From Arenicola marina (Eukaryota > Annelida > Polychaeta > Arenicolidae), in assembly GCA_964019135.1 (NCBI GenBank), contig OZ025256.1, positions 19,165,911-19,229,910 on the forward strand: DNA of 64,000 bases. The letters are read 5' to 3'. The position numbers and the translations under genes were made by a program. Below, in pieces: positions 3,301-61,460 of this stretch (positions are counted from its first letter, which is position 1; the number at the start of each line of letters is the position of its first letter). Under the pieces are notes generated by a model that was not told where the DNA came from, did not search any database, and saw nothing but the letters and a program-made list of their open reading frames with translations.

Positions 3301-6300
3301 GGCGTGTGACGTGTGATATGACGTGAGGTGTGATATGACGTGAGGTATGATATGACATGTGACGTGTGATATATGGCGTGTGACGTGTGATATGACATGA
3401 GGTGTGATATGACATGTGACGCGTGATATATGACGTGGGACGGGGTATGACATGTGACGTGATAGGACGTGTAACGTGTGATATGGCGTGTGATGAGTTA
3501 TATGACGTGTAACGTGTGATATGACGTGTGACATGACGTGACGCTTGGCGTGTGATATGACATGTGACGTGTGATATGACGTGAGGTGTATTATGACGTG
3601 AGGTGTGATATTACGAACTTCAGCACCATATCTAAAAGATCAAAAAGAAATGTCCAAAACAACCTACATATACACATTGTGAAAACTCGTGACCCGATGT
3701 GACGTGACATAAGGCATAGCGTGATGTAACTTGACAGAACGCGTAGTATGACGCGTGACATGACGTCATATGATGCAGGCGACACTTTGCCTGTGACTGA
3801 CCTGTGGGACCTCGGGATGAACTCTGGGGCGTCGTGGCCGGAGCCGAATCGGCGAATAAATCCCCTTCCTGCAACATAAGCACAGCTCCCGATCAGTCAC
3901 ACAAGGCATGTATATCAGTGCAACAGGCAGCTTCTTAATATACCGATCCACACTCCGACACTAAGCCCCGCCCACGTTTGAGTCCTTTTTCACTAATCGT
4001 GAGTATGAAATTGACAATCGTAGCTGATGGTAGGTACAAGTGAGAAGTACTCCTCTCTGAAACCGACAAGAAAGTAACATGCAACTTTGTTTGTCAGACT
4101 TGTTTCTCGGACATAACGCACGTGGAATACCTTTTTTCACCACATGATTGGATACAAGCACCAGTGACGTCAGTGACTGATTGACAGCTTGGATCGGTCT
4201 ATTAGTAATTAGGTCAAACTCAAACTCAGAAGAGCCATCCATACCATGATCCATTTATTCGTTACAGGTTTTCAACAACCTACAGAACATGTGAATGCTC
4301 ACCTGACCGTCCACTCAGTTTATCATGGAGTGCCAAATTAATAATGATTAATACCAGTTCATCTTCTCTTCAAGTAACACCGATATACGGTTTGCCCTTT
4401 CAAATGCAGTTAAGCAAGCATAACCATTATTCTTATCAACTAATCATATCAGCGTCCACTACGTTTGATAAAAGGTTTCGCCTAATTCTCTCAAATTAAC
4501 AAGGTTTGTAGTTATGTTATTTTTTGTGTTCTGAGGTTACCAATACACTATACATCTATCTATATATATCTACTATCTATTAACTAATAGAGCAAGGCAT
4601 TTGCATCAAGCAACAATCAGTGAACATATATCCACGCCTCACCTCCTCCTCCTCGTCAAAGAGACCGCTCGTCTTGCTAAAGCGCCCTCTGCTTTGAGAG
4701 AATGGCGATTCATCGTCCATTTCTCCGTCGGAGTCAACCTTGGCCTGAACTTCTTGGAATAAGTCTTCTTCTATAAATTAAAAACATACGCTATTGCAGG
4801 GACCAGGTTACAATGTCCGCAAAGATACACCCATGTTAATATATAATAATATCAGAAATAATATCAGATCCATCAAAGGTAAGTGACATATGTAATCAAT
4901 ATTTCATAGACGTTGCCAAAGACATAGGCCAACAAGATGACATACCAGATGATCAACCAATAGACGAAACCCTTCTTTATCACAAAGACCATAAATCCGT
5001 TATGGCTATAAAGGAAGGTAACCAAGGTATAACGGAAAATTTTAACTTTCGGGCAGTAAGTAAATATACAATGCACTTAAAGGCATTGACGTGTCGAAGG
5101 CTAGTGGCTACGACAAGATACCTCCAAAGCTTATCAAGCTGGGAGCTGCCATCCTGTGTGAGCCATTAAGGTATGTGTTAAATATGACGATTAATTCTAA
5201 TACGTTTCCAAAAGAACTAAAATACGCTGAAGTCACACCAATTTTCAAGAAGAAGGACAACTTACTAAGGAAAACTACAGGCCAGTAAGTGTTCTCCCCT
5301 GTATCTCCAAGATATATGAAAAAATATTGTGTGACCAGCTTATGTCCTTTATGGAACCCAGGTTATCACCCAGACTATCTGGCTATAGAAAGGGACACAG
5401 ATGTCAAAGCCTACTGATGCGCTTAGTTGAAGACTCCAAAAATGCATTAGATAATAATCAAGTTATGGGAGCTATACTAATGGATCTCTCAAAAGCATTC
5501 GATTGTCTTCCACACAGATTATTGATTACCAAGATGAACGCTTATGGCATAAGTAAACAATCATGTACGCTAGTTGCAAGCTATCTTACGAACCGCGAAC
5601 AGAGGGTAAAACTAGGACATAATCGGAGCGAGTGGCTTACCCTCAAGAAAGGAGCACCACAGGGATCTGTTTTTGGTCCACATCTGTATAATGTATTTAC
5701 GAATGACCTGCTAGTATCCACCGCACGGGAAACCGATAAGTATAATTATGCTGATGATAATACTGTGGCGGCTCAAGGTAAGGAGTTTAACAAGGTTAAA
5801 GTAACTCTAGAGAAGGCGTTATCGGAGATAACAAGGTGGTTCGTCGACAATTACATGTAAGCGAACCCAATTAAGTACCAGGCAATCGTGTTTGAAAAGA
5901 GGAACGAATTAAGTCAGCACAGATCGTTTTTGATTTCTGGAACAGAACTGGCAGCACAACAGGAAGTAACATTACTAGGTATTCAACTGGACGCTAGGCT
6001 AACTTTCGGCAACCATATATCAAGTTTATGCAAGAAGGCTGGAAAAAGTCTCAATGTTTTAGCTAGAGTTTCTAAATCAATGGATGTTGATAGCAAACTT
6101 ACGTTATTTCATGCTTTTATTCTTTCACATTTTAATTATTGTCCCGTTGTATGACATTTTTGTGATATGAAGAATATGCGTAAGATTGAAAAGATACAGG
6201 AGCGTGCATTGAGGTATGTGTTTAATGACTTTAGATCAGAATACGCAGAGTTGAGGAAGAGAGCGGGTAGACCATTGCTATATGTTGAACGATTGCGCTG

Positions 6301-7675: not shown

Positions 7676-10600
7676 ACGGGAAAAAAAAAAAAAAAAAATC
7701 AAACAGGACAAATGGGAACAGTAATTCGACAATCTACATTGTATATCGATTTGACCCAAACGTTGCGCTGCAATACACATCAAATTATGGCTACTTACAC
7801 ATTCAATTAACGTTAGCATTGGTTGAATCACTCGTATCGATTGTCTTTAGCAAGCTATCCTTAGTATTTGGATTCCAGGAAAGCTCTGGCGGCCCATAAC
7901 AGACAGTTACGTCAGAGATGAAATGGTTCACCACAATCAGTTATGGTTCGACCATATAAAACGTCAGTCATTAAAGACAAACAATCTGGGCCCAGCAACG
8001 TCACGTGATAATGAGCAATGGAGGTCGGATAAAACATGGCCCACATATACGTGTCCGGCAGAGCTCATTGCACAAAGCTAGATCCTTCGCGTGGCCCCTT
8101 TACGATACCACATCACAGATTATAGCGCCTGCTTGTAAACTTAAGGATGTCTGATACACCAAAATATACCTTGCTCGTTAAAGAGCTAAAACCATTTCAA
8201 TGAGGGGCTCCTTGTCACTTTTCGCAATATTTTTAACATGTGTTTCAATGGGATTTTTAGATTACACCTGATGTTGAGAGCGATGTGAAATAAAAACAGG
8301 CATAATGACCCTATTTTTTTTTTAATTATGCTATTCTATAAACGTATGTCTACCAAATATATAAACATTACAGACATGTATCCTACACCATTAAATACAC
8401 AAGGTGACAACATCTCACTTCCTGGTCACGTGGTGCCCGGACACTTACTTCAGACTCGGAACCAGGCCACTCATACTGCTCGTGTTGCTTGGTCGGCGCA
8501 TGCGCGGGCTCCTTGTCGAAGGAGGCGTCGCTGTCACTCTCGGATTCAGAGTCCTCGTCCGACTCCTCCACGTCGTCGTTCACCTCGTCAGCCTCGTCGT
8601 CTGGAAGGAAGGATTCACATATCGGGATCTACACATATACAGGATTCAGGAGTGTGCACACAGCAGGAGACATTCTAAAACCATACATGTTAGAGTTGTA
8701 AATACAGGATCTTACAGTGACTTACCGGATGTTATAATGACTTACCGGATCTTATAATGACTTACCGGATCTTGCAATGGATCACGGGAGTTCGCAATGG
8801 CTTACCAGATGGAAACTCGGACAGTCCGACGTTGTCGTCCTGGTGGAAGGCCAGGGATCCGATCAGATGAGGCAGGGGACGATGCAAGTAGGGATCCTGT
8901 AGCGAAAACATAAACAAGCATGCTTACAGGTTTGATTTGACCACACATTTTAAATATCGAAATCAAATCTTGGTTAATAAATCAAGAAATTTACACCAAC
9001 GGAATCGTCTTGAAAGCCACACTGCATTTTACGCCCATATAATAATTTTCGTCATTGGATATTGTCAACTCTTAAAACGCATGCAAATGCTAACTTATCA
9101 TTGATATAAATAACAAAAAGTGGTATAAAGGTTCACCTTCGGTTGCAGTACAAATTATGTTCTCTGATATAGATGATGCGAACTGAGCTGTACCTTCGGT
9201 TCCAGTATAAGTTATGTTCTCTGATATGCATGATTTTCACTAGGTTATACCTTCGGTTCCAGTATAAGTTATGTTCTCTGATATTGATGATTCACACTAA
9301 GCATTACCTTCGGTTCCAGTATAAGTTATGTTCTCTGATATAGAGGATTAACACTAAGCCTTACCTTCGGTTCCAGTATAAGTTATGTTCTCTGATATAG
9401 ATGATTCACACTAAGCCGTACCTTCGGTTCCAGTATAAGTTATGTTCTCTGATATAGATGATTCACACTAAGCCGTACCTTCGGTTCCAGTATAAGTTAT
9501 GTTCTCTGATATAGAGGATTCACACTAAGCCTTACCTTCGGTTCCAGTATAAGTTATGTTCTCTGATATAGATGATTCACACTAAGCCTTACCTTCGGTT
9601 CCAGTATAAGTTATGTTCTCTGATATAGATGATTCACACTAAGCCTTACCTTCGGTTCCAGTATAAGTTATGTTCTCTGATATAGATGATTCACACTAAG
9701 CCTTACCTTCGGTTCCAGTATAAGTTATGTTCTCTGATATAGAGGATTCACACTAAGCCTTACCTTCGGTTCCAGTATAAGTTATGTTCTCTGATATAGA
9801 GGATTCACACTAAGCCGTACCTTCGGTTCCAGTATAAGTTATGTTCTCTGATATAGAGGATTCACACTAAGCCGTACCTTCGGTTCCAGTATAAGTTATG
9901 TTCTCTGATATAGAGGATTCACACTAAGCCTTACCTTCGGTTCCAGTATAAGTTATGTTCTCTGATATTGATGATTCACACTAAGCCGTACCTTCGGTTA
10001 CAGTATAAGTTATGTTCTCTGATATAGAGGATTCACACTAAGCCTTACCTTCGGTTCCGGTATAAGTTATTTTCTCTGATATAGATGATTCACACTAAGC
10101 CTTACCTTCGGTTCCAGTATAAGTTATGTTCTCTGATATAGAGGATTCACACTAAGCCTTACCTTCGGTTACAGTATAAGTTATGTTCTCTGATATAGAG
10201 GATTCACACTAAGCCGTACCTTCGGTTCCAGTATAAGTTATGTTCTCTGATATAGAGGATTCACACTAAGCCGTACCTTCGGTTACAGTATAAGTTATGT
10301 TCTCTGATATAGAGGATTCACACTAAGCCGTACCTTCGGTTCCAGTATAAGTTATGTTCTCTGATATAGAGGATTCACACTAAGCCGTACCTTCGGTTCC
10401 AGTATAAGTTATGTTCTCTGATATTGATGATTCACACTAAGCCGTATCTTCGGTTCCGGTGTAAGTTCTGTTCTCTGATATAGATGATTCACACTAAGCC
10501 TTACCTTCGGTTACAGTATAAGTTATGTTCTCTGATATAGATGATTCACACTAAGCCTTACCTTCGGTTCCAGTATAAGTTATGTTCTCTGATATTGATG

Positions 10601-13600
10601 ATTCACACTAAGCATTACCTTCGGTTCCAGTATAAGTTATGTTCTCTGATATAGAGGATTCACACTAAGCCTTACCTTCGGTTCCAGTATAAGTTATGTT
10701 CTCTGATATAGATGATTCACACTAAGCCTTACCTTCGGTTCCAGTATAAGTTATGTTCTCTGATATAGATGATTCACACTAAGCCTTACCTTCGGTTCCA
10801 GTATAAGTTATGTTCTCTGATATAGATGATTCACACTAAGCCTTACCTTCGGTTCCAGTATAAGTTATGTTCTCTGATATTGATGATTCACACTAAGCAT
10901 TACCTTCGGTTCCAGTATAAGTTATGTTCTCTGATATAGAGGATTCACACTAAGCCTTACCTTCGGTTCCAGTATAAGTTATGTTCTCTGATATAGATGA
11001 TTCACACTAAGCCTTACCTTCGGTTCCAGTATAAGTTATGTTCTCTGATATAGATGATTCACACTAAGCCTTACCTTCGGTTACAGTATAAGTTATGTTC
11101 TCTGATATTGATGATTCACACTAAGCCGTACCTTCGGTTCCAGTATAAGTTATGTTCTCTGATATAGATGATTCACACTAAGCCTTACCTTCGGTTACAG
11201 TATAAGTTATTTTCTCTGATATAGATGATTCACACTAAGCCTTACCTTCGGTTCCAGTATAAGTTATGTTCTCTGATATAGATGATTCACACTAAGCATT
11301 ACCTTCGGTTCCAGTATAAGTTATTTTCTCTGATATAGATGATTCACACTAAGCCTTACCTTCGGTTCCAGTATAAGTTATGTTCTCTGATATAGAGGAT
11401 TCACACTAAGCCTTACCTTCGGTTACAGTATAAGTTATGTTCTCTGATATAGAGGATTCACACTAAGCCGTACCTTCGGTTCCAGTATAAGTTATGTTCT
11501 CTGATATAGAGGATTCACACTAAGCCGTACCTTCGGTTCCAGTATAAGTTATGTTCTCTGATATTGATGATTCACACTAAGCCTTACCTTCGGTTCCAGT
11601 ATAAGTTATGTTCTCTGATATTGATGATTCACACTAAGCCTTACCTTCGGTTCCAGTATAAGTTATGTTCTCTGATATTGATGATTCACACTAAGCCGTA
11701 CCTTCGGTTCCGGTGTAAGTTCTGTTCTCTGATATAGATGATTCACACTAAGCCTTACCTTCGGTTCCAGTATAAGTTATGTTCTCTGATATAGAGGATT
11801 CACACTAAGCCTTACCTTCGGTTCCAGTATAAGTTATGTTCTCTGATATTGATGATTCACACTAAGCCGTATCTTCGGTTCCGGTGTAAGTTCTGTTCTC
11901 TGATATAGATGATTCACACTAAGCCTTACCTTCGGTTACAGTATAAGTTATGTTCTCTGATATAGATGATTCACACTAAGCCGTATCTTCGGTTCCAGTA
12001 TAAGTTATGTTCTCTGATATTGATGATTCACACTAAGCATTACCTTCGGTTCCAGTATAAGTTATGTTCTCTGATATAGAGGATTCACACTAAGCCTTAC
12101 CTTCGGTTCCAGTATAAGTTATGTTCTCTGATATAGATGATTCACACTAAGCCTTACCTTCGGTTCCAGTATAAGTTATGTTCTCTGATATAGATGATTC
12201 ACACTAAGCCTTACCTTCGGTTCCAGCATAAGTTATGTTCTCTGATATAGAGGATTCACACTAAGCCTTACCTTCGGTTCCAGTATAAGTTATGTTCTCT
12301 GATATAGATGATTCACACTAAGCCGTACCTTCGGTTCCAGTATAAGTTATGTTCTCTGATATTGATGATTCACACTAAGCCTTACCTTCGGTTCCAGTAT
12401 AAGTTATGTTCTCTGATATAGATGATTCACACTAAGCCGTACCTTCGGTTCCAGTATAAGTTATGTTCTCTGATATTGATGATTCACACTAAGCCTTACC
12501 TTCGGTTACAGTATAAGTTATGTTCTCTGATATAGAGGATTCACACTAAGCCGTACCTTCGGTTCCAGTATAAGTTATGTTCTCGGATATTGATGATTCA
12601 CACTAAGCCTTACCTTCGGTTACAGTATAAGTTATGTTCTCTGATATAGATGATTCACACTAAGCCGTACCTTCGGTTCCAGTATAAGTTATGTTCTCTG
12701 ATATTGATGATTCACACTAAGCCTTACCTTCGGTTACAGTATAAGTTATGTTCTCTGATATAGATGATTCACACTAAGCCGTACCTTCGGTTCCAGTATA
12801 AGTTATGTTCTCTGATATAGATGATTCACACTAAGCCTTACCTTCGGTTCCAGTATAAGTTATGTTCTCTGATATAGAGGATTCACACTAAGCCGTACCT
12901 TCGGTTCCAGCATAAGTTATGTTCTCTGATATTGATGATTCACACTAAGCCGTACCTTCGGTTCCAGTATAAGTTATGTTCTCTGATATTGATGATTCAC
13001 ACTAAGCCGTACCTTCGGTTCCAGTATAAGTTATGTTCTCTGATATTGATGATTCACACTAAGCCTTACCTTCGGTTCCAGTATAAGTTATGTTCTCTGA
13101 TATAGAGGATTCACACTAAGCCTTACCTTCGGTTCCAGTATAAGTTATGTTCTCTGATATTGATGATTCACACTAAGCCGTACCTTCGGTTCCAGTATAA
13201 GTTATGTTCTCTGATATAGAGGATTCACACTAAGCCTTACCTTCGGTTCCAGTATAAGTTATGTTCTCTGATATAGAGGATTCACACTAAGCCTTACCTT
13301 CGGTTACAGTATAAGTTATGTTCTCTGATATAGAGGATTCACACTAAGCCGTACCTTCGGTTCCAGTATAAGTTATGTTCTCTGATATAGATGATTCACA
13401 CTAAGCCTTACCTTCGGTTCCAGTATAAGTTATGTTCTCTGATATTGATGATTCACACTAAGCCGTACCTTCGGTTCCAGTATAAGTTATGTTCTCTGAT
13501 ATAGAGGATTCACACTAAGCCTTACCTTCGGTTACAGTATAAGTTATGTTCTCTGATATAGAGGATTCACACTAAGCCGTACCTTCGGTTACAGTATAAG

Positions 13601-16281
13601 TTATGTTCTCTGATATAGAGGATTCACACTAAGCCGTACCTTCGGTTCCAGTATGAGGTCTGTCCTCTGATGAGTGTCTCTGTCATCCTCATCATCGGAC
13701 GAGTTAGCCTCGTTGATGTCTAGCTTCTCGAAGGCGCTGTCTATAACATTGAGGCCAAGGGAAAGCGCTTCTTGGATTCTAGGAATCAACTCAGCTTCCC
13801 TTTCCTCAGACGTCTTCTCCTGTACCCAAAGGAAGAGACGCTCAAAAGTTTTCATGGCCACGAAATAAAATCGGATACAGTAAATGTTATATATATAGAG
13901 ATGAATAATTCCAAAATACACATCAATTTACACTTATGATATTTAATTATATCTTGATATGACACAGGCGGGAAATGTCAGGTGATGCCTAGGTGTGGGA
14001 AGCCATACACTGGTGCAACGTCACAAACTAAGTGAACTGGCAGGCAAACCAAAACAATATGTGCTCTGATTCAAATACGGTATCCTACATTGTGTAGTCA
14101 TGGCTTTTATATCAGAATGCAAAATATGAGTAACTAACCTTTTGCTCCTTCTGACTGGACTCTTGCAGTGGATTTTCGGTGACATCGTCATCATAGACTC
14201 GCTGGCGATCAAGGCAGGGGTAAAGAATCGTAAGGGAAAAGCCAGCACAGCATAACACATAGGGTAATGTCGTTGTCTAGGCCATGTCTTTAAATGGTAT
14301 ACACAAGCTGTAATTTACAGTACTAATAATTTAATGCACATATTCTTGAAACACCAAAAAAAATATGTCCTATTACTGAGCAACAGTAATAAACAATGAA
14401 CATTATGATAATAATATGTAAAGGAAATCCCAGATTTTATTATAATAAATTGATACACTTTTCAAACAAAAATCCAGGTATCACTAATTGACTACCGGTA
14501 ATGTCTGATACACTTCACTCATTGACTTACATTTTCCACAAATTGCGTATTAGCCAACATGATGAAGTCGTTGAACACATTGTCCAGTTGCACATTAGCA
14601 AGCTGCAACAAAAAATAGAGGGACTTACACACAATATCATGAGTGAAATAGGCATTTTATCTTACGCCATTGGGCAAGGTGCTATAAATTGGAGGCATTG
14701 TTCCATGGACGTTATAAGATATCTCCAATAAGATAATCACAAAATGCAAAGTCAAGGTTTGAGCCAAACAAACGTAGAAGAATCATCTCAGATAACTGAC
14801 TTGAGGATTGAACAAGGGTCTGATGTACTGAAGTGTGACACCATCTCAGCTTTGGTGACCCCTCAACAAGGTGACTAAAACACTGATAGACTAAAGTGTA
14901 GCACGACCTGAGCCTTGGCAGCCCCCTACAAGAGGACACAAACATACCTTCGTCTGGTGGACCAAGTGGCTCAGCTTGTCCTCAATGGAGTGAGTCTGGG
15001 CCAATAGCTGGTGGGAAAACTGCTGCAGATGTTGCAGCATCTTGACAAAACAAAAACAGAACTTTTCTATTATAAATTTATATGTAATTATATATTATTC
15101 TTCATTGTATAGATGATGAAAATAAAACTAAATTGATAAAAACAAAATGTTGGGCATTATATTTTTTGTCCTTAAAATTTATATTACATGTATTGTAAAT
15201 AATCACAAAAGTGAGTAACAGTGAGTAAATTATTATTACAAATAATTGTCATACAACAGTACAAGTTATAAGATATGAAAGGAATATCATGAGTGACAGT
15301 ATTTGATGCGTCTGATTTAGACATATTGTTTGCTTGGCTATAGTAGAAGCAATCATAAGACGTGTGTGACAACATACCCCAGCATCCCCTGCCAGTGACC
15401 AGCGATTGGCCCCTGATCTTATCTCTGCCACAGTCCATGGTTTCTCCCAGACCTTTACTTCTTTATCATTGTCTCTGGCAGGCTAGAAATAAATAATACA
15501 AATATCAATATAAGATTTCCATATACCTTGACTAGAGGTGATAATGAAAGTATATAATTATTACAATTAAACATATTTTATTTTTTTTAAAGACCAAATA
15601 ATAACAAAATTATTTTTATAATTTATCTGAGAAATGATAACTAACAATTAACTAAATCATATATAGATATTTATATATGGTGACTCTGTTTTAAAACTGT
15701 AATCTCTTACTTTTAAACAATTATTATTTTAGTTTGTTGTAAGATATTCAGGATGCTTTAACCACTGTTGGTCATATCAGGTCAATGGAAAAGATAGGGA
15801 CTGAAGCCATATCCACGGAATAACTCCTCGTGAAAAAGGATAGGGATCTTTATCCTGCAACCACACAGACATGGCCACAGCGGGGCTTGAACCATCGATC
15901 CACATGCTGTTAAGCTCTCGGACTCAGGTGAACAGAGCACTCAAGCCAAGGTAAGACTAAGAGCTCTACCCCACCTACTTGTTTTATAGCTAATTTTGTT
16001 GGATTGTAACAGGGTCTGTGAAGCAGCCCCTGCAAAAGATTATTAGGGGGCGTTCACCATTGTACAGTAACGCCTTGTTTTGAGATTACAGTACTGTATG
16101 TCAACACATCTTAGAGCATGTCACCATGTGCTGTAAACGTGTTGGGGGCGTTGCTGTCTACTATCTGATGCAGTTCGACAGTTCGAACGCTGAAAGTTGC
16201 ATGAATTTCTTGATTGACTTCATCCAAATTCAGTGTGCGGGATAATACCTCAACTTTTCCTTCCTCCACTGGGCCATCCAT
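85..16281 (-). CDS. WASHC2: WASHC2/FAM21, WASH complex subunit, N-terminal half (spliced, runs off the left edge)
   Basis: WASHC2 (FAM21) is the scaffold of the endosomal WASH complex. Its head assembles with the other subunits and its long acidic tail binds retromer VPS35 and capping protein through repeated L-F-acidic-L-F motifs (family knowledge). Fifteen exons were placed by splice sites and phase: 15482-15378, 15040-14948, 14602-14531, 14201-14139, 13819-13640, 8896-8806, 8600-8449, 7414-7277, 7027-6916, 4770-4643, 3868-3802, 3036-2911, 2363-2221, 1538-1446 and 398-85. All joins keep one open frame (1877 nt, about 625 codons). Head residues match the vertebrate protein closely (PWTVAEI, VFNDF, DSAFEKLDI, LILEPK, RPLPHLIGS). 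The tail shows LFDEEEE, DLFAAP, DIFADD, PAGAVSMFG and LFDDDDDLFGD. A tentative start exon is at 16281-16249. The remaining tail exons lie left of base 85. The gene is unusually repeat-laden: two of its donors seed tandem arrays and one intron holds a retrotransposon. Confidence 0.93.
485..905 (-). mobile_element. tRNA-derived SINE copy
   Basis: The minus strand from about 900 shows a tRNA-like A box (GATAGCTCAGTCGGTTAGAG) and B box (GGTTCGCGCC), followed by the family body (hallmarks on plus: GGAGCCATGTCC, GAAGGACATGGGGTCTTTAT, GACATGGCCACAGCGGGGC; end: GGTCATATCGCGTCAATGGG). It interrupts WASHC2 intron sequence. It is not a functional tRNA. Confidence 0.82.
940..1060 (-). mobile_element. Partial SINE copy, same family
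   Basis: The body segment AAAGGAGCCATGTCTTCGGG to CCTGCACCGGTCGCTTCCAC repeats the copy immediately to the left, without the tRNA-like head. Confidence 0.65.
1446..1538 (-). CDS. WASHC2: WASHC2 exon 15 (PAGAVS motif)
   Basis: Acceptor acccag, donor GAG|GTAAGT, 93 nt, phase 0-0. It encodes LPAGAVSMFGAAGNPMLAAM; the PAGAVS-hydrophobic-F motif recurs in the tail of the family. Confidence 0.9.
2221..2363 (-). CDS. WASHC2: WASHC2 exon 14
   Basis: Acceptor ccacag, donor AAG|GTTGTG (weak at +5), 143 nt, phase 1-0. It encodes EADIFADDTKDLFPPN, matching vertebrate TADIFGDEEGDLF, and a Lys/Pro-rich end. Confidence 0.87.
2440..2530 (-). mobile_element. SINE body fragment, same family
   Basis: Diverged match to the body (GGTCAGATCGTGACAATG to TTATGTCTCAGGGAGTA) between WASHC2 exons 13 and 14; no tRNA-like head. 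Confidence 0.45.
2911..3036 (-). CDS. WASHC2: WASHC2 exon 13 (LF motif)
   Basis: Acceptor ccctcag, donor AAAG|GTGCGT, 126 nt, phase 1-1. A proline-rich start (RAPPQKPR) leads into ADLFDEEEEEEDLFAAPS, a textbook L-F-acidic-L-F motif of the retromer/CapZ-binding tail. Confidence 0.9.
3225..3640 (+). repeat. Degenerate GACGTGTGATAT minisatellite
   Basis: Tens of irregular short units built from GACGTG, TGTGATATGACGTG and ACATGTGACGTG lie in the WASHC2 intron between exons 12 and 13 and continue weakly to about 3770. Minus-strand ORFs through it are artefacts. Confidence 0.9.
3802..3868 (-). CDS. WASHC2: WASHC2 exon 12
   Basis: Acceptor gttgcag, donor ACAG|GTCAGT, 67 nt, phase 0-1. It encodes EGDLFADSAPATTPQSSSRG and completes the LF motif begun in exon 11. 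Confidence 0.87.
3936..4207. mobile_element. Small inverted-repeat (MITE-like) element
   Basis: About 270 bp bounded by TAATATACCGATCC at the left and its near-perfect reverse complement GGATCGGTCTATTA at the right. A related sequence lies inverted at 42960-43236. There is no coding capacity. It sits in the WASHC2 intron between exons 11 and 12. Confidence 0.65.
4643..4770 (-). CDS. WASHC2: WASHC2 exon 11 (LF motifs)
   Basis: Acceptor tttatag, donor GAG|GTGAGG, 128 nt, phase 1-0. It encodes EEDLFQEV, DDESPFSQ and KTSGLFDEEEE. The last motif continues across the intron into EGDLFADS of exon 12, so one L-F-acidic-L-F unit is split by an intron. Confidence 0.9.
4870..6775 (+). mobile_element. 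Decayed non-LTR (LINE) retrotransposon, 5'-truncated, antisense in a WASHC2 intron
   Basis: The reverse transcriptase is readable in broken frames: a pre-domain at 4875-5090, then SKASGYDKIPPKLIK, NYRPVSVLPCISKIYEK (after a frameshift near 5280), MDLSKAFDCLPHRLL, GAPQGS and YADDN, the polymerase active site. The C-terminal part runs to about 6600 (RKIEKIQERALRY, RTTAYGHNS-like). There are at least two frameshifts and three in-frame stops (about 5858, 6152 and 6476). The 3' end has AATAAA and a (TTATC)n tail, typical of CR1/L2-type elements. No endonuclease domain remains. It is a dead copy. Confidence 0.9.
6916..7027 (-). CDS. WASHC2: WASHC2 exon 10
   Basis: Acceptor cttcaag, donor CAGG|GTGAGT, 112 nt, phase 0-1. 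It encodes NFNDELSAKIGAPPGGK and a Lys-rich VKREKKKSH, matching vertebrate SFADELAARIKGD...LKEKKER. Confidence 0.9.
7277..7414 (-). CDS. WASHC2: WASHC2 exon 9 (acidic, LF motif)
   Basis: Acceptor tcgacag, 138 nt, phase 0-0. It encodes SGSDLFEEDGDGEEEEF, equivalent to the vertebrate CDLFADSEKEEEDIE stretch, and ends HQDREAPPAR. The inferred donor CGG|GTCGGT is weak, so the exact 3' end is less certain than the others. Confidence 0.78.
7636..7698 (+). repeat. Poly-A tracts
   Basis: Two long A runs (about 39 and 18) separated by CACGGG lie between WASHC2 exons 8 and 9. They could be the tail of an old retroposon, but I see no recognisable body beside them. Confidence 0.85.
8449..8600 (-). CDS. 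WASHC2: WASHC2 exon 8 (acidic linker)
   Basis: Acceptor ttccag, donor GAA|GTAAGT, 152 nt, phase 1-0. The 51 residues are mostly Asp, Glu and Ser (VEESDEDSESESDSD) and match in character the acidic stretch after the head of the vertebrate protein. Confidence 0.88.
8706..8805 (-). repeat. 20-bp repeat, 5 units, at the WASHC2 exon-7 splice donor
   Basis: Starting at the authentic donor (8805) the intron reads as five 20-bp units of the type GTAAGTCATTATAAGATCCG. GTs occur at 8785, 8765, 8745, 8725 and 8705. Three of these are perfect GTAAGT consensus sites, stronger than the real GTAAGC. The nearest decoy (GTGATC) is weak. Confidence 0.9.
8806..8896 (-). CDS. WASHC2: WASHC2 exon 7 (end of head), followed by a short donor array
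   Basis: Acceptor gctacag, donor TCTG|GTAAGC, 91 nt, phase 0-1. It encodes HRPLPHLIGSLAFHQDDNVG, matching vertebrate [20 protein letters not shown]. Five 20-bp units, each with a GT at the donor position, follow directly. Confidence 0.94.
9135..13639 (-). repeat. 57-bp minisatellite, 79 units, copying the WASHC2 exon-6 splice donor
   Basis: From 9135 to the exon boundary is 4503 bp, exactly 79 x 57, so no net length change has occurred. The minus-strand unit contains CTGGAACCGAAG|GTAAGG or GTACGG followed by CTTAGTGTGAATC, matching the end of exon 6 and the start of its intron. Three units (near 10441, 11866 and 11981) read AAGATACGG and have lost the donor. Units far from the exon (9135-9250) are the most diverged; the rest differ by one to three bases. 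Confidence 0.97.
13640..13819 (-). CDS. WASHC2: WASHC2 exon 6 (head), followed by a giant splice-donor array
   Basis: Acceptor gtacag, donor AAG|GTACGG, 180 nt, 60 codons, phase 0-0. It encodes EKTSEEREAELIPRIQEAL, VIDSAFEKLDI, an acidic SSDDEDD patch and TDLILEPK, matching the vertebrate head almost block for block. The last roughly 33 nt of the exon plus the first 24 nt of the intron resemble the 57-bp unit that is repeated 79 times immediately downstream. Confidence 0.95.
14139..14201 (-). CDS. WASHC2: WASHC2 exon 5 (head)
   Basis: Acceptor tcgccag, donor AAG|GTTAGT, 63 nt, phase 0-0. It begins RVYDDDV, matching vertebrate RVYDEEV, and ends QKEQK, a charged linker. Confidence 0.92.
14531..14602 (-). 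CDS. WASHC2: WASHC2 exon 4 (head)
   Basis: Acceptor ttgcag, donor AAT|GTAAGT, 72 nt, phase 0-0. It encodes LDNVFNDFIMLANTQFVEN, nearly identical to the vertebrate HNVFNDFLMLSNTQFIEN. This is the strongest single family match in the gene. Confidence 0.95.
14948..15040 (-). CDS. WASHC2: WASHC2 exon 3 (head)
   Basis: Acceptor gtcaag, donor AAG|GTATGT, 93 nt, phase 0-0. It encodes LQHLQQFSHQLLAQTHSIED, matching the vertebrate LLQFLQEFSQQ...RTHEI helix. The intron just downstream holds two diverged copies of a roughly 58-bp segment (about 14810-14935). Confidence 0.93.
15378..15482 (-). CDS. WASHC2: WASHC2 exon 2 (head)
   Basis: Acceptor ttctag, donor GGG|GTATGT, 105 nt in phase 0-0. It encodes 35 residues with KPWTVAEIRSGANRWSLA, collinear with the vertebrate RPWSVEEIRR...WSLAADAG block that opens the WASH-assembly head domain. 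Confidence 0.92.
15745..15975 (-). mobile_element. tRNA-derived SINE copy
   Basis: Same body as the copy at 485-905 (ATTCAGGATGCTTTAACCAC, GACATGGCCACAGCGGGGCT, GAACCATCGATCCAC). It lies in the presumed first intron of WASHC2. The tRNA-like head is degenerate. Confidence 0.8.
16249..16281 (-). CDS. WASHC2: WASHC2 tentative first coding exon
   Basis: An ATG at 16281 opens 11 acidic codons (MDGPVEEGKVE) that end at a GAG|GTATTA donor in phase 0. This fits the next exon, which begins PARDNDKEVKVWEKPWT. Vertebrate homologues have a similarly short acidic leader before the W-[E/Q]-[R/K]-PW motif. The match is by length and phase only. The same strand has a longer uninterrupted ORF (16350-16111), so other ATGs are possible and only cDNA would settle it. 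Confidence 0.45.
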
Positions 16282-36557: not shown

Positions 36558-37459
36558 AGTATGAAGCCTGTATGAAATCTGTATGAAGCCTGTATGAAAC
36601 CTGTATAACGCCGGTATGAAACCTGAATGAAGCCTGTATGAAGCCAGTATGAAGCCTGTATGAAGCCTGTATGAAGCATGTATGAAGCCTGTATGAAGCC
36701 TGTATGAAGCCTGTATGAAGCCTGTCTGAAGCCTGTGTGAAGCCTGTATGAAGCCTGTTTAAAGCCAGTATGAAGCCTGTATGAAGCCTGTATGAAGCCT
36801 GTATAAAGCATGTATGAAGTCTGTATGAAGCCTGTATGAAGCCTGTATGAAGCCTGTGTGAAGCCTGTATGAAGCCTGTGTGAAGCCAGTATGAAGCCTG
36901 TATGAAGCTTGTATGAAGCCTGTATGAAGCCTGTGTGAAGCCAGTATGAAGCCTGTATGAAGCCTGTATGAAGCCTGTATGAAGCCTGTGTGAAGCCTGT
37001 ATGAAGTATGAATGAAACCTGTATGAAGCCTGTATGAAGCCTGTGTGAAGCCTGTATGAAGCCTGTGTGAAGCCTGTATGAAGCCTGTGTGAAGCCTGTA
37101 TGAAGTATGAATGAAACCTGTATGAAGCCTGTATGAAGCTTGTATGAAGCCTGTATGAAGCCTGTGTGAAGCCAGTATGAAGCCTGTATGAAGCTTGTAT
37201 GAAGCCTGTATGAAGCCTGTGTGAAGCCTGTATGAAGCCTGTGTGAAGCCTGTATGAAGCCTGTATGAAGCCTGTGTGAAGCCTGTATGAAGCCTGTATG
37301 AAGTATGAATGAAACCTGTATGAAGCCTGTATGAAGCCTGTATGAAGCCTGTATGAACCCTGTATGAAGCCTGTGTGAAGCCAGTATGAAGCCTGTATGA
37401 AGCCTGTGTGAAGCCTGTGTGAAGCCAGTATGATGAAGCCTGTATGAAGCCTGTATGAA
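36470..37459 (+). repeat. 11-bp satellite (ATGAAGCCTGT), about 85 units
   Basis: About 1 kb of ATGAAGCCTGT with GTGAAGCC, ATGAAGCCA and ATGAAACC variants. The 11-bp period gives an 11-residue peptide period, leaving a false 375-codon minus-strand ORF. Confidence 0.96.
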
Positions 37460-37560
37460 GACCGGGTGGTGCAGTGGTTAGCGCGGAGGCCTTCTTCTCG
37501 TCGTAAGATTGTGCGTTTACTTCCCGACGGAGAAATGTTTTCGTTATTTACTAATGCCAG
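37459..37560 (+). mobile_element. Possible tRNA-derived SINE head
   Basis: CGGGTGGTGCAGTGGTTAGC is an A-box-like start abutting the satellite; the B box is not clear. It may belong to the SINE that seeded or interrupted the array. Confidence 0.4.
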
Positions 37561-51376: not shown

Positions 51377-51382
51377 ACCAGG

Positions 51383-53182
51383 ATGGTGCCCCCAGTGCTG
51401 AAGCACCTGCGAGTCTGGATTTCCGTCATTTTGGTGCTCCAGGGCTTGGTGCTCTTGGTGTACCTCAGCCTGATCCAGACGCCAATTACAACACCGGCGC
51501 AAAGCAATAATGACGTCACGACACGTCATCAACAACATATGTCGTCATCTGATGACGTCATCGTCGTGCGCATGCAGCAGCGACGGGATAACGGGACACA
51601 CCCGGATGTAACCAATGCCAGCCAATCAGAGACGTTCGGTGAGAGCTGGTTGGCGAGGGGAGGCGGTAACTTCAGTTACATGGTGGTTGGCAATAAATCA
51701 CGTGGTCGCGACGTCATCTTCAAGACCCAATTCGAGCATGGAGATACGGATGTTCGTGCTATCAACGCATCAATACAACATGAAAAAACGTCAAAGGCTT
51801 CCATCATCTCCACTCAGTTTGTGGTGGAGAGGACCTTTCCCAGGGGTTTCAAAAACACAGGCGCTTCCTACAACTTCGCCAGTAACATTCACAGATGGAT
51901 GAAGGTAGCCTTCCGCACAAGCCCTAACATCAGCCTACATGATAACACGAGGGAATTCTTCCACGTCAGAAAGTCTGAGCAGGAGGGAGGAGGCCACGTC
52001 TTGTCCACGTGTTTCCCGGCAGGCTCCAAAGCGAAGAGTCTCGTCGACAGCCCAAAGTCATCATTGGCAAGCGTCGACGACGACGCCGACGACGACGACG
52101 ACCAAAATACGGATAACGATGCCAAATATACGGACGACGCTTTGGCGTTCACCGCCACGGGGGCTGAGTGCCAGTGCCTGTACGGCTGGCTGGGTCGCCA
52201 CTGCAGCATTCCCAGCATGGTCGTCTCCTCGGGCGCCGATAAGTATCTGGATCGTATTCGCACGCGTTATCGCCCTCGCCGTATCATCAACGCGCTCACA
52301 TTTAACATGGAGTTCGAACTTCTCGAAGCTCGGTTGTACGAACTTCAAGACGCCGTCGACGTGTTCATCATCTACGAGTCGAATTATACGCTGTACGGCG
52401 ACCCCAAGCCGTTGCGACTCCTCAAACGTCTTCTCGATGGATACCTGAAGGAGTTTCACCATCAAATCGTGTATGTCTTCAACGGGAAGTTCCCGCTGAA
52501 CTCCAAAGAGGAGGGCTGGTTGCCGGAGAAGCACGCGAGAGCTTATCTGGGACGCGAAGGCATGAAGCGCATTTTCGGGGCGCGACCCGACGATCTGTTC
52601 ATCTACACGGACGCCGACGAGATCCCGTCTCGCGAGGCTTTGCTCTTCCTCAAGCTCCACGACGGTTACCCGGAGCCGTTCGGGGCCTCCTTACGCTGGT
52701 CGGTGTTTGGTTTCTTCTGGCGCCAGAGCGATACTACCCGGATTATCATGGGGTCCACCTACGGCATGTTCCGCTACGTCTTCGAACACGACGCTCAGAA
52801 GCTGCGTTCGGGGGATTATGACACGATAACGCCATCTTTACTGCGGTCCTACGTCGACCGAGGCGCCACCTTACAGAGCTGGCTGCTGGCCGATGACGAG
52901 GGGACGGCCGGCTGGCATTGCTCGTGGTGTTCCCGCCCAAACGACATCAGAATCAAATTGTCGTCTGCTATTAACGCGGATTTCCCGCGCTGGGGGTCTT
53001 TCCCCGAGAAGCTCGATCTAGCGTACATATCCAACTTGATTCGAACCGGAACGTGGTTTGATGACGTCACGAAAGTCGGTGAGCTTGTAAATGCAACGAC
53101 GGATGGTTCTTTCGCCCCGGAATATATTATGCAACACAAGGCCAGATACAAGCATTTGATTGATATTAAAGCTGCAGGTTAA
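51383..53182 (+). CDS. MGAT3: MGAT3-like beta-1,4-mannosyl-glycoprotein 4-beta-N-acetylglucosaminyltransferase (GT17)
   Basis: The family adds the bisecting GlcNAc from UDP-GlcNAc to the core beta-mannose of N-glycans in the Golgi. The 599-codon ORF (human about 533) is a type II membrane protein: short cytosolic tail, membrane anchor at residues 11-31, a long stem with an Asp-rich run near 230-245, a small Cys-rich CQCLYGWLGRHC segment near 260-272, then the GT17 domain from RRIINALTFNMEFELLEARL to the end. Conserved blocks include FIIYESNYTLYGDPKPL, the DADEIPSR acidic site (D410-A-D-E413), GFFWRQ, GWHCSWC (510-516), DFPRWG and LIRTGTWFD. As in vertebrates the coding region is one exon. A 3' splice site (attttcag, ending 51338) lies just upstream, suggesting noncoding 5' exon(s). 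The longer stem is the main difference from vertebrate forms. Confidence 0.95.
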   Translation: MVPPVLKHLRVWISVILVLQGLVLLVYLSLIQTPITTPAQSNNDVTTRHQQHMSSSDDVIVVRMQQRRDNGTHPDVTNASQSETFGESWLARGGGNFSYMVVGNKSRGRDVIFKTQFEHGDTDVRAINASIQHEKTSKASIISTQFVVERTFPRGFKNTGASYNFASNIHRWMKVAFRTSPNISLHDNTREFFHVRKSEQEGGGHVLSTCFPAGSKAKSLVDSPKSSLASVDDDADDDDDQNTDNDAKYTDDALAFTATGAECQCLYGWLGRHCSIPSMVVSSGADKYLDRIRTRYRPRRIINALTFNMEFELLEARLYELQDAVDVFIIYESNYTLYGDPKPLRLLKRLLDGYLKEFHHQIVYVFNGKFPLNSKEEGWLPEKHARAYLGREGMKRIFGARPDDLFIYTDADEIPSREALLFLKLHDGYPEPFGASLRWSVFGFFWRQSDTTRIIMGSTYGMFRYVFEHDAQKLRSGDYDTITPSLLRSYVDRGATLQSWLLADDEGTAGWHCSWCSRPNDIRIKLSSAINADFPRWGSFPEKLDLAYISNLIRTGTWFDDVTKVGELVNATTDGSFAPEYIMQHKARYKHLIDIKAAG

Positions 53183-56939: not shown

Positions 56940-57835
56940 CACAGATGATAGCCAGTCAATGACGATAGCCAGGCAATGATGATAGCCAGGCAATGATGAT
57001 AGCCAGGCAATGATTATAGCCAGGCAATGATGATAGCCAGTCAATGATGATAGCCAGGCAATGATGATAGCCAGGCAATGATGGCCAGGCAATGATTATA
57101 GCCAGGCAATGATGATAGCCAGGCAATGATGATAGCCAGGCAATGATGATAGCCAGGCAATGATGGCCAGGCAATGATTATAGCCAGGCAATGATGATAG
57201 CCAGGCAATGATGATAGCCAGTCAATGATGATAGCCAGGCAATGATGATAGTCAGGCAATGATGATAGCCAGGCAATGATGATAGCCAGGCAATGATGAT
57301 AGCCAGTCAATGATGGCCAGGCAATGATTATAGCCAGGCAATGATGATAGCCAGGCAAAGATGATAGCCAGTCAATGACGGCCAGGCAATGATTATAGCC
57401 AGGCAATGATGATAGCCAGTCAATGATGGCCAGGCAATGATTATAGCCAGGCAATGATGATAGCCAGGCAATGATGATAGCCAGGCAATGATGATAGCCA
57501 GTCAATGATGGCCAGTCAATGATTATAGCCAGGCAATGATGATAGCCAGGCAATGATGATAGCCAGGCAATGATGATAGCCAGGCAATGATTATAGCCAG
57601 GCAATGATGATAGCCAGGCAATGATGATAGCCAGTCAATGATGATAGCCAGGCAATGATGATAGCCAGGCAATGATGATAGCCAGTCAATGATGATAGCC
57701 AGTCAATGATGATAGCCAGTCAATGATGATAGCCAGTCAATGATGATAGCCAGTCAATGATTATAGCCAGTCAATGATGATAGCCAGGCAATGATGATAG
57801 CCAGGCAATGATGATAGCCAGACAAGCTAGTACAG
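56940..57835 (+). repeat. 15-bp satellite (ATGATAGCCAGGCAA), about 60 units
   Basis: ATGATAGCCAGGCAATG units with CAGTCAATG variants and 9-bp deletions (ATGGCCAGG). The 15-bp period leaves long false minus-strand ORFs (LPGYHHCLAIIIAW). Confidence 0.95.
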
Positions 57836-58630: not shown

Positions 58631-61460
58631 CTGGGAGACAGATACAGTGCCTGGTTAACGTCGGTGTATTAAAGCAGCCTACTTACACATGCGCCATGTT
58701 AGATTTTTTACATTTTAGAATCAAGACATGATGAGAAAGTATCTCAAAATTATGATGCATAAATGTTTTATATCTCGTTGAGTCTGTAAACAACAATTTC
58801 AACATTAAACTGCGCGGACGTCCTAGCGAGCCGCGGTCGACATCACACAGAATACAGAGCAGCGAACAGGCGCGCAGGGATATAAAGCCGGCCACCAACT
58901 TCTGCTCCGGTGAACAAATTTGCTTCTCTCCGGATAGCCATGTCCCCGGCAGTGACCCCAAACTCTTTTCGAAAGAACCGACATGTTAATTCTTATTACT
59001 ATTCTTTATTATAATTCATTTATAGCCACTGCAAAACAACGTCACCGGTGAGTGAAAGGCAAGACTTACCAGGGGAATCTCGGAGGCCATCGAAACGAGA
59101 CTTACCAACGAGATCTAGGTGGCGGTCGGGAGGCGAGTCTTACCAGCGAGATCTCTGAGGCGGTCGGGAGGCGAGAGTTACCAGCGAGGTCTAGGCAGTC
59201 ATCGAGAGACGAGACTTACCAGCGAGATCTAACAGGCCATCGAGAGACGAGACTTACCAGCGATATCTAAAAGGCCATCGAGAGACGAGACTTACCAACG
59301 GGATCTCGAAAACATCGAGAGACGACACTTACCAACGGGATCTAAGAGACCATTGAGAGGCGAGACTCATCAGCGAGATCTTAGAGGCCATCGAGGGGTG
59401 AGACTTCCCAACGGGATCTCGAAGGCAATCGTGAGACGCGACTTACCAGCGGAATCTCGGAAGTCATGGCCAGTCTACTAGATAGTCCAGACACTCGGGG
59501 TTCCTCACGCTTCTTAATCGTGATCTGCAACGGCAAAAGATCATTGGTTGATCTTGGTATAAATATATACTTCCCAATAGGACTGACGATTCTTCTCTGT
59601 CGAGCGCAATGGTTGATTCATTAGAACCCAGCGCATAGGTACAGGTATCATTATAAAAAAATGTCACGAAGAAATACATTCTTGTTTGTTATCTCATATA
59701 AATAAAATGGAGCAATGCAGGTCATTGAGACATTTTCAGAAGTAAAATTCCCTTACCATCTAACGCAACACACGCCAATGACGACATATATGACTATGTC
59801 TTTCAAAGACAAAACTTGTTTTGAATATTATTTGTTAAATATTTAAACTTACTTTCGCCGATTTTCTCAACGATGGCTTCATATCTTGAAAAAAATCAAT
59901 ATCCGGTTCCGGTGTATCCTCTTGACTGTTTTGTCGGTTGGCAAGGAAACGGTCATACTGGTTCCCATTGGGAGCCAAGCTGTTGGACTGGGCAGCTGTT
60001 TGGTCGATGAACTGCGAGGACGGCACGGCGCTGTTCCCGGGTCCGATGAACCCCTGCACATCCCAGGCATCCCACGATTGTAGCTCCTCCACCTTGGAGA
60101 CATTGCACACAGACTATAGCCATAGTATATCTGTATCTATGTCAAGTCAATGTTCGTTTATTTTCACCAAGTGCATTCATCACGTGCATAAAAACAAAAT
60201 CGCAGTTAACAAAACTGGAGCTTCCCATAACAAGTGTATCACAACTAGATATATCAAAAACTTTAAAAAAAAAACACATGGTGAAGGTGACCCGAACTAA
60301 GGCCATCCTGGACCGCTATCGTCAGGGCCACCTGAAAATTAGGATCTAAATTTATCATAACATCTAGGTGAAAAAAAACAGAATAACACAGAGAACAGAA
60401 ACAATATGAAAAAATAAATAAACAGAAAACATATTTTTAATTTGTACAAACATATACATCTATGAAATTTCTGCCATGGATGTCAGTAGTTCTGGCACAA
60501 CTTCTGTGGTTCGTACATATAGGGATTGGTGGATGGATTTATTTCGTTGGTGAGGCCTTTAGGACCATATAACATAATTATTTAACGTGCGTAAAAAACA
60601 TAACATGGCGAATTGACTTCAGAAGATGGCCCAATAATTCGGTGTCCCAAAACTTTTGTCACTGGTATGTACAAATATTGCTGAGGTATGTGAGACCACG
60701 TATTCCTCACTGTGGATCCAAAAATACACAATCGATATAAAGCAGGTTTAGAAATGTCTAGAAATATTAGGTAGCAAAGCGATGCGAGAATGCCACCTCC
60801 TATAGCAGGTAAGATTTTCGCCTCTTAATTCTATGGCCAGTCTGTTAGGCAGAATATCGAAGCGGAGCGAACCTTTTTCTCAATTTCATCAATATAGGGG
60901 GGAGGGGTGGGGGGGTCGAGAGGCCAAAGTCCGGGTGCGGCTTATAATATGTAGTTTTCCGGAAATGGTTCTGGGTGCCTGCCAACCCGGTTTTGAGGCC
61001 AAAGTTGGGGTGCGGCTTCTAATATGTATGCGGCTTCAAATAGGCAGTTTACGGTAGATGTATTTTTAACAATAATAAGAGTTTACCTCTAATATTAGCT
61101 TATCAGACAGAGTAGACAATCAAAACTACAGTCTCTCATTTTAACCGTCATTTTTCTTCCAGTCAACAAACGCGCACATTTCGGGAACAGCAAGGATGCA
61201 ACATCTATAACACTAACGCTGCATAAGTGACTGTTACGTACATCGTTACTGGGCAGTGATTGCTGGAACTCCCCTTGCAACGCGTCACGGCTGTGCAGGC
61301 TGTCCACAAAGGTTCGCTGGTCACCGGTCATGGGAAGCAACATCCCAGAGTTCTTCCTCCGCCGTACAAGGTGCAGAAAACACATCAACCGCCTAAAGAT
61401 GCCGACGATTCCACGGACGAGCCCCACAAGCTTGCGACCAATGATCTGTAACATGTTCAC
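58409..61460 (-). CDS. EBAG9: EBAG9/RCAS1, Golgi-associated trafficking regulator (four coding exons)
   Basis: EBAG9 (RCAS1) is a small Golgi/secretory-pathway protein with a hydrophobic, basic N-terminus and a coiled-coil C-terminus; in mammals it modulates regulated secretion. Exons 61460-61242, 60092-59853, 59524-59447 and 58630-58409 all join in phase 0 to give 250 residues (252 if the upstream Met is used; human 213). Matches to the family are: N-terminal IFRRLMCF (human SFLKRLIC); VEELQSWD (human VEEWTSWD); EPDIDFFQDMKPSLRKS (human EPDYFKDMTPTIRKT); ITIKKREEP and GLSSRLA (human VIKKREP, GFSSRLA); and the C-terminal charged coiled coil ending IKLS (human VKLS). The insert at residues 85-130 is longer than in human. 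The intron after exon 3 starts with a splice-donor repeat array. Confidence 0.95.
59064..59446 (-). repeat. 38-bp minisatellite copying the EBAG9 exon-3 splice donor
   Basis: About ten units of 37-39 bp follow the authentic donor. Read on the minus strand each has GAGATCTCGCTG|GTAAGTCTCG, the tail of exon 3 plus its donor. Donor-like sites sit at about 59402, 59364, 59327, 59289, 59251, 59213, 59176, 59139, 59101 and 59064. The first two, nearest the exon, read GGAAGT and ATGAGT and have lost the GT; the other eight keep it. Confidence 0.93.
59447..59524 (-). CDS. EBAG9: EBAG9 coding exon 3, donor amplified into an array
   Basis: Acceptor gttgcag, donor GCTG|GTAAGT, 78 nt, 26 codons, phase 0-0. 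It encodes ITIKKREEPRVSGLSSRLA. The exon's last roughly 22 nt and its donor are repeated about ten times in the following intron. Confidence 0.93.
59853..60092 (-). CDS. EBAG9: EBAG9 coding exon 2
   Basis: Acceptor tctccaag, donor AAA|GTAAGT, 240 nt, phase 0-0. The 80 residues open with VEELQSWDAWD and close with DFFQDMKPSLRKSAK, the most conserved core of the family. Confidence 0.93.
60093..61241 (-). other. EBAG9 intron 1
   Basis: About 1.15 kb, AT-rich, with a short imperfect duplication around 60930-61045 (GGCCAAAGTCCGGGTGCGGC and GGCCAAAGTTGGGGTGCGGC). No other feature seen. Confidence 0.6.
61242..61460 (-). CDS. EBAG9: EBAG9 coding exon 1
   Basis: Begins MNMLQIIGRK; the second Met (61454) aligns better with the vertebrate start, so either is possible. 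A ttacag just after that Met could instead be an acceptor. Donor GAT|GTACGT, phase 0. Residues 3-32 form the hydrophobic/basic membrane-associating segment. Confidence 0.88.

Follow-up and report, generated by a model that had tools for sequence, protein, structure and literature searches.

A 'mirage'-like minisatellite across a 5' splice site of an annelid WASHC2-like gene, and similar arrays in other genes

Tandem repeats that straddle exon-intron boundaries are known from amphioxus, where they are called 'mirages'. They have been described in Adh3, in the globin genes BflGb6 and BflGb9 and in troponin C, with similar imperfect repeats in PGBD5, and the reports on which we draw place them at boundaries of both kinds, 5' and 3', with no sign that splicing suffers (PMC3087553, PMC3902484). 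Length polymorphism, including somatic variation, is reported for Adh3. In the Rogers model, as outlined in a passage of the first of these papers, introns are gained when AGGT proto-splice sites are duplicated in tandem within the genome (PMC3087553). Within the annelids, excerpts of a study of earthworm metallothionein describe intronic minisatellites in intron 1, with monomers of 25-216 bp (PMC12783039). Our literature search found no report of a 'mirage' in an annelid, and 'mirages' combined with minisatellites gave the amphioxus globin paper only.

Here we describe an array of 79 copies at one donor of a WASHC2/FAM21-like gene, in a 64-kb stretch of annelid DNA (the whole stretch analysed, hereafter the window). 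Like the amphioxus mirages, its tandem units span an exon-intron boundary, with 33 nt of exon and 24 nt of intron, and copy the AG/GT splice signal, with GT at 76 of the 79 unit starts. The first-pass annotation of this DNA had drawn the same likeness, and the excerpts of both amphioxus papers bear it out. Host and length differ: BflGb6 belongs to a cephalochordate and, in the part of the literature cited above, has 3-6 units. Unlike the amphioxus mirages, the annelid arrays were found in several genes by a small search that included a background comparison. Tandem AG/GT copies are also common to the Rogers model of intron gain, whereas the WASHC2 intron looks like an already existing one that was lengthened. 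The earthworm metallothionein repeats are likewise annelid and intronic, but they are described within the intron, and the excerpt makes no mention of their spanning a splice site. As far as the literature was searched, our observations extend donor mirages to a new phylum, and they add a long ladder of donor copies and a first rough estimate of how frequent such arrays are.

Amphioxus itself was considered as the host and ruled out by the mitochondrial gene order and by erythrocruorin linker genes; the host is an annelid. The mitochondrial contig (C762, 15,942 bp) carries its tRNAs on one strand in the order F-E-P-T..C-M..V..L-A-S-L..I-K..S..N..D..Y-G..Q..W..R..H, which we take to be the Lumbricus-type annelid order; the exceptions are Ile (3346-3415) and Val (13224-13282), which were predicted on the other strand, and a low-scoring tct call (383-443). 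TGA is read as Trp in its code, and AGA stands at COX1 Ser positions (by eye). The erythrocruorin linker domain PF16915, presumably an annelid domain, occurs twice on C14 (best E 1.6e-20) and in none of 14 prokaryotic controls.

Anatomy of the 57-bp array

The gene name rests on tblastn comparison with a presumed vertebrate WASHC2/FAM21 sequence; against it, the 180-nt exon beside the array has 57% identity over 61 aligned positions (Table 1). A search for support of the name gave no Pfam match above the cut-off and no PDB match. The 3' end of the exon reads ..CTGGAACCGAAG, the intron (13639-8897) opens with GTACGG, and the next exon reads ..DPYLHRPLPHLIG... Across the intron, ..TDLILEPK/DPYLHRPLPHLIG aligns with ..VELILEPK/DLYIDRPLPYLIG of the presumed vertebrate sequence. 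Judged by this match of a conserved protein across the intron, the first donor would be the one that yields the conserved protein. A reverse-transcriptase-like reading (QGSVFGPHLYNVFTNDL) was seen by eye at about 5600-5700 of the window on the plus strand, inside WASHC2 intron sequence, and suggests a LINE remnant.

TRF reports the array at 9135-13671, with a period of 57 bp, 79.6 copies, 95% match and 0% indels. Cut from the exon's donor (13639 to 9137), it falls into 79 units of exactly 57 bp without an indel, and it makes up 4503 of the 4743 bp of the intron (95%). The first-pass annotation had given the same number and length of units and had placed their beginning exactly at the exon boundary; both statements agree with our cutting, in which the GT of the first unit is the exon's donor. 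Each unit consists of a 24-nt intron start followed by a 33-nt exon tail. The exon agrees with the unit consensus in 28 of its last 33 nt but in only 5 of the 24 nt upstream, and so the unit takes 33 nt from the exon and 24 nt from the intron. The match of the exon tail to the unit scores 24, whereas the best of 59,342 other positions on the minus strand of the window scores 11. The units thus align to the junction above chance, which supports the earlier claim that they were copied from exon tail and donor.

The three unit starts without an intact GT are those of units 30, 32 and 57 (ATACGG), as many as the first-pass annotation had counted. Since the GT of unit 1 is the authentic donor, the decoys also number 79, namely 78 unit starts and a terminal site, and 76 of them have a GT. 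At least one in-frame stop is present in 76 of the 79 units (all but units 31, 34 and 56). Unit 1 is among those that carry such stops, and therefore splicing at any decoy would cut the protein short, as had been proposed.

The units comprise 25 distinct sequences in a non-periodic order, and unique sequence borders the array at each end. Thirteen positions of the unit vary, including donor positions 1, 4 and 5. The two units farthest from the exon, 78 and 79, are the most diverged, with 8 and 9 mismatches to the consensus against 0-3 in units 1-77, and the sequence after unit 79 has no recognisable homology to the unit (77 of 500 shuffles score as high). A test for multi-unit duplication blocks gave a weak signal, the longest repeated block of 4 being equalled in 22 of 300 shuffles. 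When the whole assembly (867 Mb, 762 contigs) was searched for one unit pattern, all 51 exact matches fell inside the WASHC2 array. By eye, no polypyrimidine tract lies upstream of the AG/GT of the unit (ATACTGGAACCGAAG), which sets the units apart from ratchet points of recursive splicing.

Table 1. Positions of the WASHC2-like exons, the arrays and related features. Positions without a contig name refer to the window; a slash marks an exon-intron boundary.
Feature	Position	Strand	Basis or remark
WASHC2/FAM21-like exon (EKTSEEREAELIPRIQEALSLGLNVIDSAFEKLDINEANSSDDEDDRDTHQRTDLILEPK), 180 nt, 3' end phase 0; 'exon 6' of the first-pass annotation	13640..13819	-	tblastn E 3e-16; acceptor GGGTACAG/GAG at 13819
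Last 33 nt of exon, copied in every unit	13640..13672	-	28/33 vs consensus
Authentic donor GT (AAG/GTACGG), exon-proximal	13638..13639	-	EPK-DPYLHRPL junction as in presumed vertebrate WASHC2
79 x 57-bp array: donor, intron start and exon-tail copies	9137..13639	-	TRF and unit cutting
Terminal decoy GT (GTGAAC) after last unit	9135..9136	-	adjoins units 78, 79
Unique intron remainder, 240 nt, acceptor TTCGCTACAG/GATCCC at end	8897..9136	-	coordinates
Next WASHC2 exon (DPYLHRPLPHLIGSLAFHQDDNVGLSEFPS..)	8806..8896	-	tblastn E 6e-5; acceptor 8896, donor 8805
Second donor array, short, partly degenerate, 20-bp units (CCG/GTAAGT)	8703..8805	-	starts at next WASHC2 exon's donor
38-bp array (CTG/GTAAGT) over EBAG9-like donor at 59446 (exon ..SRLAMTSEIPL/)	59062..59459	-	TRF and reading
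ALDH1L1, donor arrays in two introns	C1:604,800-615,250 (L034, L044)		one array-free donor between
CCT7, four consecutive splice sites touching repeats	C17:26,069,645-26,071,205 (L083, L063, L068, L048)		

Splice-site arrays in other genes

The WASHC2 array is not isolated: arrays of this kind are a common structure in the host genome and are not special to WASHC2. For the 20-bp array beside the next WASHC2 exon, the TRF row covers 8703-8773, and the donor-nearest units, outside that row, were read in 20-bp register. The gene under the 38-bp array of the window is presumably EBAG9-like, by comparison with human EBAG9. A 68-bp array in a 200-kb sample of C1 starts at an apparent exon end (..DLEGVVASDR/), and this exon gave no Pfam match. 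Among the listed C1 arrays of the word AGGTAAGT (0-39.5 Mb, three copies each), five of nine start at apparent coding-exon ends, four of these five exons having been recognised by eye and the fifth belonging to ALDH1L1. Three of the remaining four arrays (L036, L038, L041) showed no exon by eye, and the start of the fourth (L035) lay beyond 3 kb of extra sequence. Searched against Pfam, the by-eye exons of L037, L039 and L040 had no match and that of L042 a weak one below the cut-off (E 0.09).

Arrays lie at more than one splice site in ALDH1L1 and in CCT7. The first array of ALDH1L1 has 39-bp units and extends over about 6.5 kb, its first unit being read in L034, its last in L044 and its middle represented by pattern matches only; the second (28 bp x 24) lies two introns downstream and begins in the tail of the exon ..GNTVVLKPAQ/. 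Taken by itself, the first ALDH1L1 exon aligns with 10-formyltetrahydrofolate dehydrogenase as far as the exon's final residue (E 1e-24). Joined at the exon-proximal sites to the next two exons, on the far side of the first array, it matches the same protein over 109 residues without a gap (E 4.4e-60). In CCT7, identified by its match to T-complex protein 1 subunit eta in PDB (E 7e-13), a 3' splice site (L083) is covered by a 34-bp x 5 array with five TCGCCAG/G copies, and the exon lies at the last copy. The resulting exon length of 152 nt is consistent with CCT7, and on this basis the exon-proximal copy is probably the true acceptor. The periods of the other exon-edge arrays in the host are 20, 28, 29, 31/46, 34, 38, 39, 44, 58, 68 and 84; the importance that the first-pass annotation attached to a period divisible by three finds no support in them.

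Several other features were seen in passing. The window contains further long minisatellites at 36559-37460 (11 bp x 82) and 56944-57825 (17 bp x 53), as well as a single reading frame of 601 aa on the plus strand (51377-53182), which presumably resembles an MGAT3-type glycosyltransferase. On C1, a 122-kb run (10,048,734-10,170,811; L018-L031) consists of 318.7 copies of a 383-bp unit at 97% match; the unit combines an EGF-like exon (Pfam EGF, E 1.3e-10) with an intron, which by the TRF copy number gives more than 300 near-identical EGF exons.

Origin of the array

We are fairly confident that the WASHC2 array represents an annelid minisatellite of the 'mirage' type, an untargeted expansion over a donor that is tolerated because the exon-proximal donor is still used. 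A 57-bp stretch across the exon end and the intron start would have been duplicated in tandem, and the duplicate would have grown to 79 units by unequal exchange or slippage. Arrays would reach donors by chance, in a genome dense in minisatellites whose donors are covered about like other bases. The WASHC2 array would then persist because the spliceosome keeps the first donor, and the other copies leave with the intron.

An alternative, to which we give a small though real chance, is that tandem duplications have a hot spot at the 5' splice site, perhaps owing to R-loops, polymerase pausing or microhomology at AGGT, and arrays would then be born preferentially at donors. The exon-end starts of five of the nine listed AGGTAAGT arrays could reflect such a preference, and two donor arrays are found in ALDH1L1 and two in WASHC2. 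Moreover, of 37 array units, five had a best donor score of at least 9 bits, compared with one when the units were reversed; the fifth of the five (C1:10,189,999) had no exon by eye. The exon check covered the nine AGGTAAGT arrays. Against a preference for donors, distinct listed arrays numbered 9 in 39.5 Mb for AGGTAAGT, on the plus strand only, and 8 in 37 Mb for the word reversed, one of these eight having CGGTAAGA in its unit. Match counts were 1416+2706 for AGGTAAGT and 1572+1271 for its reverse, and 2927+6666 for AGGTGAGT against 1095+2038; an enrichment of donor words by such counts was rejected because they are inflated by long arrays, and the distinct arrays give no clear enrichment. 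Arrays at acceptors, which occur as well, also speak against it.

A census of the chaperonin family, used to avoid choosing sites by their repeats, bears on the same question. We took 20 of 49 PF00118 (Cpn60/TCP1) matches in E-value order and read 201 bp over each end; two PF00118 places, whose open frames run to 570 and 659 aa, were passed over as presumably intronless, and L059, which had no obvious donor, was kept in the denominator. TRF places 2 of the 20 donors in arrays (L048, in CCT7, and L057, which we take to be CCT6-like). Reading by eye adds two more, for a count of 4, at places where TRF had left out either the first unit or the array as a whole: L047, whose first unit matches at 23 of 28 nt and whose TRF row stops short of the donor, and L063 (CCT7), with three copies of GTCAGTCGCC. 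One of the 20 acceptors lies in an array (L083, CCT7), or one to two if L068 (CCT7), which ends a two-copy repeat, is included; arrays near but not over the site (L054 for a donor, L069 for an acceptor) were not counted as spanning. Any repeat within the 201 bp was found at 5/20 donors, 3/20 acceptors and 9/60 random positions, which were taken from the window together with the opening 48 kb of the C1 sample (Fisher 0.32 and 1.0).

The readable sites of the window, which include the WASHC2 array itself, add 16 donors and 12 acceptors. Inside TRF arrays are 2/16 of these donors, or 3/16 counting the 20-bp array, and 0/12 acceptors. Pooled with the census, 4-7 of 36 donors and 1-2 of 32 acceptors are in arrays. 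Arrays cover 18.0% of the window, a share that drops to 11.7% when the 57-bp array is set aside; the figures are 19.4% for a 48.7-kb part of C1 and 61% for another 29 kb. Since donors lie in arrays about as often as expected from the background of 12-19%, this small census shows no enrichment of arrays at donors and no sign of donor targeting. Acceptors look low, but not convincingly so: the lower-tail P for their depletion is 0.009-0.26 depending on the background, and donors against acceptors give a Fisher value of 0.36 or 0.16. With small counts from one gene family and the window, and coverage of 12-61% by stretch, a modest donor enrichment or acceptor depletion is possible.

Far less probable than a hot spot, in our judgement, is a functional array, either a U1-binding ladder at the intron start that guards the transcript against premature cleavage and polyadenylation, or else a poison device whose stop-carrying decoys tune WASHC2. 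The GT retained in 76 of the 79 decoys, any of which would truncate the protein if used, would suit such a role, but recent expansion by itself would also leave the GTs intact. Moreover, the variable donor positions 1, 4 and 5 among the 13 indicate that the donor varies like the rest of the unit, and similar arrays with unrelated periods and units occur in unrelated genes (ALDH1L1, CCT7). Just as improbable is an assembly artefact in which the repeat was collapsed or over-expanded. Although arrays this long are easily mis-sized, the 25 distinct units in non-periodic order, the divergence at the distal end only, the unique flanks and the confinement of all 51 exact unit-pattern matches to the WASHC2 array argue against it.

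Choice of one donor among 80

Under an untargeted expansion, splicing would have to pick out the first donor from the ladder. The first-pass annotation had suggested that upstream bases in which the real exon differs from the unit might be exonic enhancer sequence. Splice-site scoring of all 80 sites, also proposed there, was carried out with a textbook donor matrix, and it does not favour the authentic donor: this scores 8.2 bits, and 43 of the 79 decoys are stronger at 11.3 bits. By the accessibility predicted from local folding, the authentic donor ranks 64th of 80. Structural masking of the decoys was ruled out on this prediction, which puts the authentic donor among the less accessible sites. 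Since the authentic site stands out neither by consensus strength nor by predicted accessibility, choice by position would explain its selection.

The exon would measure 180, 237 or 294 nt and onward depending on the donor used, and distance to its own acceptor singles out the first. Judged by protein homology, which needs it, the first WASHC2 donor should be the one used, and the exon-proximal site likewise appears to be the true site in ALDH1L1 and in the CCT7 acceptor array. Position probably sets the choice, by way of exon definition. If the exon is defined from its own acceptor, which lies 180 nt upstream, the first of the 80 donors would be selected, with near-complete use of that donor. 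Exon definition predicts the first donor in 5' arrays and the last acceptor in 3' arrays, and the homology agrees.

A wider generalisation is tentative, and we offer it as a possible rather than a probable account: about one donor in five to nine would lie in an array of copies of itself, the exon-proximal copy would be chosen almost without error despite stronger decoys, position relative to the exon's other end would decide, and expansion at donors would be near neutral, with arrays at acceptors less tolerated. This run of 80 near-identical donors, in which 43 decoys are stronger by consensus than the real site, amounts, with the similar arrays over other genes, to a natural experiment on the choice of the first donor. 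Together, the annelid arrays suggest that mirages require no mechanism of their own beyond a repeat-rich genome and splicing that tolerates them.
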